Shown here: positions 41,153-42,310 of the stretch, piece by piece
Layout: each line of letters opens with the position of its first letter
How positions within the stretch are numbered: position 1 is the first letter of the stretch
DNA from: Alphaproteobacteria bacterium
Lineage (GTDB): Bacteria > Pseudomonadota > Alphaproteobacteria > GCA-2731375
Direction of reading: 5' to 3'
DNA length: 49,071 bases
NCBI GenBank assembly: GCA_029936195.1
Contig: JAPYUH010000007.1
Span: 1-49,071, forward strand
Position numbers and translations under genes: made by a program
Notes under the pieces: model-generated
Seen by the model: the letters and a program-made list of their open reading frames with translations, nothing else
Told to the model about the DNA's origin: nothing
Database searches by the model: none

Positions 41153-41219
41153 AATTTCTTCCCCTAGGAATTGTGGTTATCTGTCATTATGTGATCTCGA
41201 TTGCGATTTGGCCAACTAA

Positions 41220-41487
41220 TACCAAGTGACGGTGATAAAGACCCATATAGATGCTTTACGAAAGCTTTCGGGTTGGAGCGCGTTGCGCCGCAGTATTTTG
41301 GGGTGCTGGTACCACAAACGGCGCGGGACGCCTCCGAAAGCCTTCGTAAAGCGTCGAATTCGGTCGTTTCAGAGACCCCTCGGCGGCGTCGTGAAAGTTT
41401 GACGGTAGCAGTACCGCCGGCACATCCACTCCTACCCGAGGGGTCTCTGAAACGATCTATATGAGTCTTTATCACCGTCACTTGGTA
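41220..41487. mobile_element. Candidate MITE-like non-autonomous element, 268 bp, with TIRs and two internal hairpins
   Basis: TIRs 41220-41252 / 41455-41487 (32/33 complementary); hairpin arms 41253-41271 / 41334-41352 (18/19) and 41364-41383 / 41436-41455 (20/20); flanking TAA at 41217-41219 and 41488-41490. Confidence 0.75.
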
Positions 41488-41542
41488 TAAGTCTGATTGC
41501 AACGGCGCGGCGACAAAAACACGATGGGTGGATTACGGGCGG

Positions 41543-42310
41543 ATGGCTGGCAAAAAGGTAACCTTCATGGCGAGCGAGACGCCGCAGGCCGCGGCCGCAT
41601 TGGTGCAACTGCGAGACCGCTACGATGATGTCGGCCCGGAGGCGGCGGACATCATTGTCGTCCTGGGTGGCGATGGATATATGTTGAGCGTGCTGCATGA
41701 TACCCGGCATCTTTCCCTGCCCATCTACGGCATGAACCAGGGCACAGTCGGCTTCCTGATGAACGATTTTTCATCCGCTGATTTGCAAGCCCGGCTTGCC
41801 GCCGCCGAACTGGCGGTGCTCCGCCCCCTGGCGATGGTCGCGCGGGATGCCAGCGGTAAACTGCACGAGGCCATGGCCATCAACGAGGTCTCGGTCTTTC
41901 GCGAAACCCGCCAAGCGGCCAAGATCCGGATTTCCATCGACGGCAATGTGCGTCTTGAAGAACTGGTATGCGACGGCGTGCTGGTCGCCACGCCCGCCGG
42001 CAGTACCGCCTACAATCTCTCCGCTCATGGCTCCATCATTCCCCTGGATGCCGAGATCCTGGCCCTGACGCCGATTTCCGCCTTTCGCCCCCGGCGCTGG
42101 CGCGGCGCGCTGCTGCCGGGCACCGCACGGGTCCGCTTCGATATTCTGGAGCCCGACAAGCGCCCGGTTTCCGTGGTCGCCGACAACCGGGAATTCCGCT
42201 CCGTGGTCGAGATTGAAGTGGTCGAGGACCATGCCGACGAACTGCATTTATTGTTTGATCCGGAACATAATTTGGAAGAACGCATTTTGAACGAACAGTT
42301 TATTCCATGA
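41543..42310 (+). CDS. nadK: NAD kinase
   Basis: [62 protein letters not shown]; start position uncertain (GTG 41528 or ATG 41543). Confidence 0.93.

Follow-up and report, generated by a model that had tools for sequence, protein, structure and literature searches.

A putative MITE-like element upstream of nadK with a conserved two-hairpin core and exchangeable ends in Alphaproteobacteria

Upstream of the NAD kinase gene nadK, in the 49,071-nucleotide stretch of alphaproteobacterial DNA that was analysed here (the window), lies a 268-bp element that, taking all the evidence together, we read with good confidence as a MITE-like, non-autonomous DNA transposon that carries a conserved folding core and borrows the transposases of insertion sequences (IS). 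What is new about the element is this core, a pair of hairpins that is conserved under exchangeable ends. The element family is found in scattered lineages of the Alphaproteobacteria, and neither Rfam nor the open-access literature that we searched holds a description of it.

The whole element, TACC...GGTA, occupies positions 41220-41487 on the + strand; its copies share these ends and measure 250-280 bp. Its terminal inverted repeats (left, 41220-41251, + strand; right, 41456-41487, - strand) pair with each other and covary within copies. They enclose hairpin 1 (41252-41353, + strand), a short and mostly self-complementary linker (41354-41363, unstranded) and hairpin 2 (41364-41455, - strand), which is a homologue of hairpin 1 on the opposite strand. 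Hairpin 1 consists of a 20-bp outer stem (41252-41271 with 41334-41353) and inner helices, and the 20-bp outer stem of hairpin 2 (41364-41383 with 41436-41455) is perfect. The first-pass annotation had described inverted-repeat ends, two internal stems and a three-way junction, and all three are borne out: the ends are complementary at 32 of 33 positions, counted from the A at 41219, the outer stems pair at 18 of 20 positions in hairpin 1 (with one T-G and one A-C) and at 20 of 20 in hairpin 2, and the shape of the folded strand is a three-stem junction, or a four-way one if the linker pairs. The RNA folding that the same annotation had proposed as a check was run; as a single strand the element folds with z = -13.8 as RNA and z = -15.7 as DNA, and 0 of 200 shuffles folded equally well. 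Its statement that no transposase is encoded also holds, the only ORFs crossing the 268 bp being 87-112 aa long, and indels between copies break any reading frame common to them. An Rfam search with the element returned no family above threshold.

The TAA triplets on either side of the element (41217-41219 and 41488-41490, neither assigned to a strand) had been taken by the first-pass annotation for a 3-bp target duplication, and the other copies agree. Among 74 non-redundant end pairs, which span 46-380 bp, the commonest size being 263, the flanks have the form TNA and the left N equals the right N in 56 of the 74 elements, where 26 would be expected from the margins; the targets resemble C-TNA-G. 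Since TAA is a true 3-bp TNA duplication, the 268 bp from TACC to GGTA make up the element itself. About 20 BLAST matches to it are present in its own genome, a figure that takes in full copies and fragments and is not a full-length copy count, many of the matches being fragmentary or situated at the end of a contig. All 10 congeners have matches, as do 13 of 41 genomes altogether; beyond the genus they extend to a second genus of the family (G011) and, as weak matches, to another family (G021). The empty site is seen next to nadK (41546-42310, + strand; Pfam PF01513/PF20143), a neighbour outside the element that provides the host side of the comparison. An orthologue of nadK is present in 11 of 11 genomes of the genus, and the element is absent upstream of it in 10 of 10 congeners; eight of these align collinearly across the insertion point with a single triplet where the element sits, and L254 and L257 have a gap there. 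Because no element lies upstream of nadK in the ten congeners, the insertion is private to the source lineage, as sampled. The copies, the duplication and the empty site together mean that the element was mobile in the past, and we hold it highly likely that it is mobile and moved by a DDE-type mechanism. The BLASTn comparison suggested by the first-pass annotation thus returned the multiple copies, variable flanks and empty sites of the non-autonomous mobile element that it had proposed, and not the single conserved copy that it had named as counter-evidence.

Several observations concern the copies and their surroundings. Contigs C337 and C341 of G000, C44, C58 and C80 of G009, and others start or end inside a copy, so that the repeats seem to break assemblies and the numbers of copies counted are minimum values. 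In most congeners a promoter-like TATATAGT, or a similar motif, lies just past the insertion point on its downstream side; the flank in the window (41491-41545) is without a corresponding stretch, and L249 and L250 are also without the motif. Related forms include elements with a single hairpin, about 158-162 bp long, and hairpins made of the ends alone, 33-59 bp long; several of these have matching TNA flanks. In many other subfamilies the architecture is the same and the arms differ in sequence. Larger elements (L082; L087, 4109-4488; L156, 7048-7373) contain nested GC-rich hairpins such as GGGGGCGCCCCCCG...CGGGGGGACACCCCC, which are perhaps other palindromes inserted into them. Chimeric forms exist too: at L171 (643-701), L173 (328-487) and L044 (552-709) one arm or half-hairpin is joined to a different partner, and these elements look as if made by template switching. 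Viral contigs searched with the end pattern gave no exact match, and plasmids searched with five of the elements gave no match.

The element would be moved in trans by the DDE transposase of an insertion sequence whose ends match its own, and for TACCA ends the mover may be of the IS5 or IS1182 kind. The first-pass annotation had called for a search for an autonomous element with the same terminal repeats, and none came to light for the TACCA subfamily: the examined loci hold no such partner of 450-6000 bp, loci with PF13340 and PF01609 genes have other ends or none that we recognised, and end spacing in six further genomes yielded no TACCA-ended autonomous element. One candidate partner, a 2.1-kb end pair at L120, turned out to be a pair of distinct small elements. 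At least 110 DDE_Tnp_1 matches occur in G012, most of them to a pair of nearly identical transposases whose open frames are 381 and 467 aa long.

Around the same hairpin core, the ends differ from one lineage to another. They read ATACCA in the genus of the source genome and in G208, G317 and G279; TAGTGTGGTG in G118 and G346; the 16-bp TAGGAGCCTGTCTGAG in G286 and G135 and, with one mismatch, in G197 and G362; TAGGGTCC and AGAGCATGATG in G306; TAGCACCC/TAGTACCC/AAGTACCC in G015; GGAACGTGCC, again in G286; and GGTGCCAAGG in G312. The complete insertion sequence at L232 (1440 bp, genome G014) has TAGGAGCCTGTCTGAG ends, one exact and the other with one mismatch, and its 434-aa transposase reaches 383 bits with the NCBIfam IS1182 model (cutoff 270); the hairpin core is known from genomes other than G014, for example G135 and G286. 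In G135, which has the core, several contigs start with the same IS-like end, with no whole IS copy seen, and the frame leaving this end, as read by eye, starts MSKTFRPWDVDQ, like the start MPKKFRAWQVDQ of the G014 transposase; a protein search of the examined loci did not recover this IS1182-like frame. For the sister subfamily with TAGGAGCCTGTCTGAG ends, an IS1182-family transposase would be the mover. The occurrence of the same hairpin core with different IS-like ends suggests that the folded core serves some purpose in its own right. At L334 (G317:C5:28509-28972) lies a 464-bp element whose 25-bp ATACCA ends are perfect.

The two halves of the element are homologous hairpins that face each other in inverted orientation. 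Read on the + strand and the - strand respectively, hairpins 1 and 2 can be aligned as a single family of 68 sequences (two hairpins per copy from 34 of 35 copies, L007 being left out), with a common architecture of outer stem, GTAGGA, inner helix, apical stem and GACGCC; at one inner pair, 49 of the 68 pooled hairpins have G-U or U-G. A covariance model of the hairpin family gives hairpin 1 of the window 65.5 bits on the + strand and 29.2 on the -, and hairpin 2 the reverse, with 92.3 bits on the - strand and 35.4 on the +. At E <= 1e-4 the model finds matches in 28 of 385 sampled alphaproteobacterial genomes, and in 3 of 398 genomes of a phylum-wide sample, one of them marginal and any of which may belong to the Alphaproteobacteria. 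Of the 98 matches in 48 loci, most form pairs, a + match followed by a - match at a distance of about 10 nt. The GTAG next to the inner helix is kept in most copies of the genus, and NTAGG is found in its place in other lineages.

The first-pass annotation had spoken of a structured repeat, and on this point the case is stronger than it claimed, the sequence changing from copy to copy while the structure stays conserved. In an alignment of 35 full-length copies, 97.4% of cells are paired over 65 pairs drawn from the terminal stem and from hairpin 1 with its inner helices, cells with two-sided changes number 269 against 83 +/- 10 in shuffles, and the signal is lost when the partner is slid by 1-3 columns. 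On a tree built from the loop sequence, same-branch double changes at 73 pairs, taken from the terminal stem and the two outer stems, amount to 112 where 7.5 +/- 2.5 are expected, the maximum in 500 tree-based nulls being 17. Stem changes occur on both sides together, and the inner and apical motifs are conserved.

This covariation, taken alone, could be explained by copying between the arms: long inverted repeats would fold back during replication, template switching would copy one arm onto the other, and the structure would be an unselected by-product. The spectrum of two-sided changes fits such a process. Transitions and transversions stand at 70:72 among them, like 41:45 in the loops, one-sided changes being 72:28, and among close pairs only, the two-sided changes (42:34) likewise resemble those at unpaired sites (56:39). 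Two-sided changes with no excess of transitions are a prediction of arm-to-arm copying and not of wobble-pair compensation, and wobble-mediated compensation, for which the transition bias served as a test, was not favoured by it. The chimeric and half-deleted elements at L171, L173 and L044 are also of the kind that template switching would make. In the outer stems of the genus copies, G-T and A-C on the + strand are nearly equal (54:40), as for DNA. Nevertheless, two features are left unexplained by copying, namely the conservation of the inner and apical motifs across lineages and a mirrored, strand-specific wobble asymmetry in the inner helices. We regard arm-to-arm copying as both a rival and a possible contributor to the covariation of the stems, and as the whole explanation we consider it plausible but on balance rather unlikely.

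The asymmetry is seen when wobble pairs of the inner helices are counted on the + strand: G-T to A-C is 80:1 in hairpin 1 and 5:38 in hairpin 2, the latter count being only partly blind, as one A-C column had been noticed beforehand. Both halves therefore tolerate G-T when read inward from the nearer end. In 77 hairpins of other lineages, none of them used in model building, the inner helix has 68 G-T to 5 A-C, under a model-based alignment that itself favours G-U. The mirrored asymmetry implies a single-stranded folded form, and we think it probable that the fold of the core as a single strand is under selection, RNA and single-stranded DNA being left undivided here. Selection would then act on the folded strand, in either form, as read inward from either end of the core. 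One possibility is that the core tames insertion by providing an RNA structure that is symmetric, and hence the same in both orientations of the inserted element. Alternatively, it may help mobilisation from exposed single strands. Rolling-hairpin replication was considered, and we found nothing pointing to it. More tentatively, the core may be a folding module that spreads across the class, persisting while the terminal repeats and hence the transposase are exchanged, and acting, as single-stranded RNA or DNA, alike in either orientation.

We consider it improbable that a RAYT-type Y1 transposase instead mobilises the core in the form of single-stranded DNA. The inverted hairpin doublet, the GTAG beside the inner helix in the genus and the compensatory changes are all as in REPINs (PMC3116915), and Y1 transposase genes are present in 13 of 15 genomes of the family. 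However, the TNA duplication and the conserved terminal repeats are not REPIN features, GTAG gives way to NTAGG class-wide, and neither the element nor its ends were present at the ten RAYT loci examined. The presence of RAYT does not track the element, which occurs in G003 and G006 with no RAYT detected, and G012-G014 have RAYT but no ends of this element's type; a link to RAYT is disfavoured. The RAYT-type genes at L243 and L247 have another inverted repeat on their flanks, one that contains GTGACGTAAT or TACGTC. It is most improbable that the element is a resident, non-mobile structured RNA or cis-regulator of nadK, for although the fold is strong and lies 58 bp upstream of the likely nadK start codon, ten congeners are without it and many copies sit beside other genes. 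The first-pass annotation had suggested a structured repeat with a regulatory role upstream of nadK; the structured repeat stands, and the role as a conserved regulator of nadK does not, being refuted by the absence of the insertion from the ten congeners. The orientation of neighbouring genes, from rough gene calls, also follows no clear rule (19 divergent, 18 convergent and 30 co-directional).

The usual view of bacterial MITEs is that they are decayed insertion sequences with an unimportant interior. The MITE-like element described here resembles them in being short and gene-free, in its terminal inverted repeats, target duplication and many copies, and in having, for one sister subfamily, a partner IS with the same ends. 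It differs in that a two-hairpin core is kept under unrelated ends and in that the stems throughout the element covary within copies. With the interior conserved and the ends variable, these elements would parasitise several transposase families while carrying a folding core under selection. Their many copies are also natural replicates with which structural selection could be told from arm-to-arm copying, an old question about palindromic repeats. Among insertion sequences, the IS1182-family IS at L232 shares its 16-bp TAGGAGCCTGTCTGAG ends with core elements of G286, G135 and their relatives, but it is 1440 bp long and bears a gene, and the present element ends in TACCA, not TAGGAG. The IS1031 group of the IS5 family duplicates TNA, as does our element (56 of 74). 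Folding is conserved in the bcr1-type repeats. Like our element, these are short mobile repeats, but they belong to other bacteria, the Bacillus cereus group, have another target, a TTTAT motif (PMC6542083), and are not known to have a two-hairpin core with exchangeable ends. Compared with REPIN/RAYT systems, the element differs in its length of about 260 bp, its terminal repeats and its 3-bp duplication, and no RAYT link was seen. REPINs are nonetheless its closest analogue: they consist of two homologous hairpins that face each other, show compensatory changes and are predicted to fold as single-stranded DNA or in mRNA (PMC3116915), and the element too is an inverted hairpin doublet with compensatory changes and a predicted single-strand fold.
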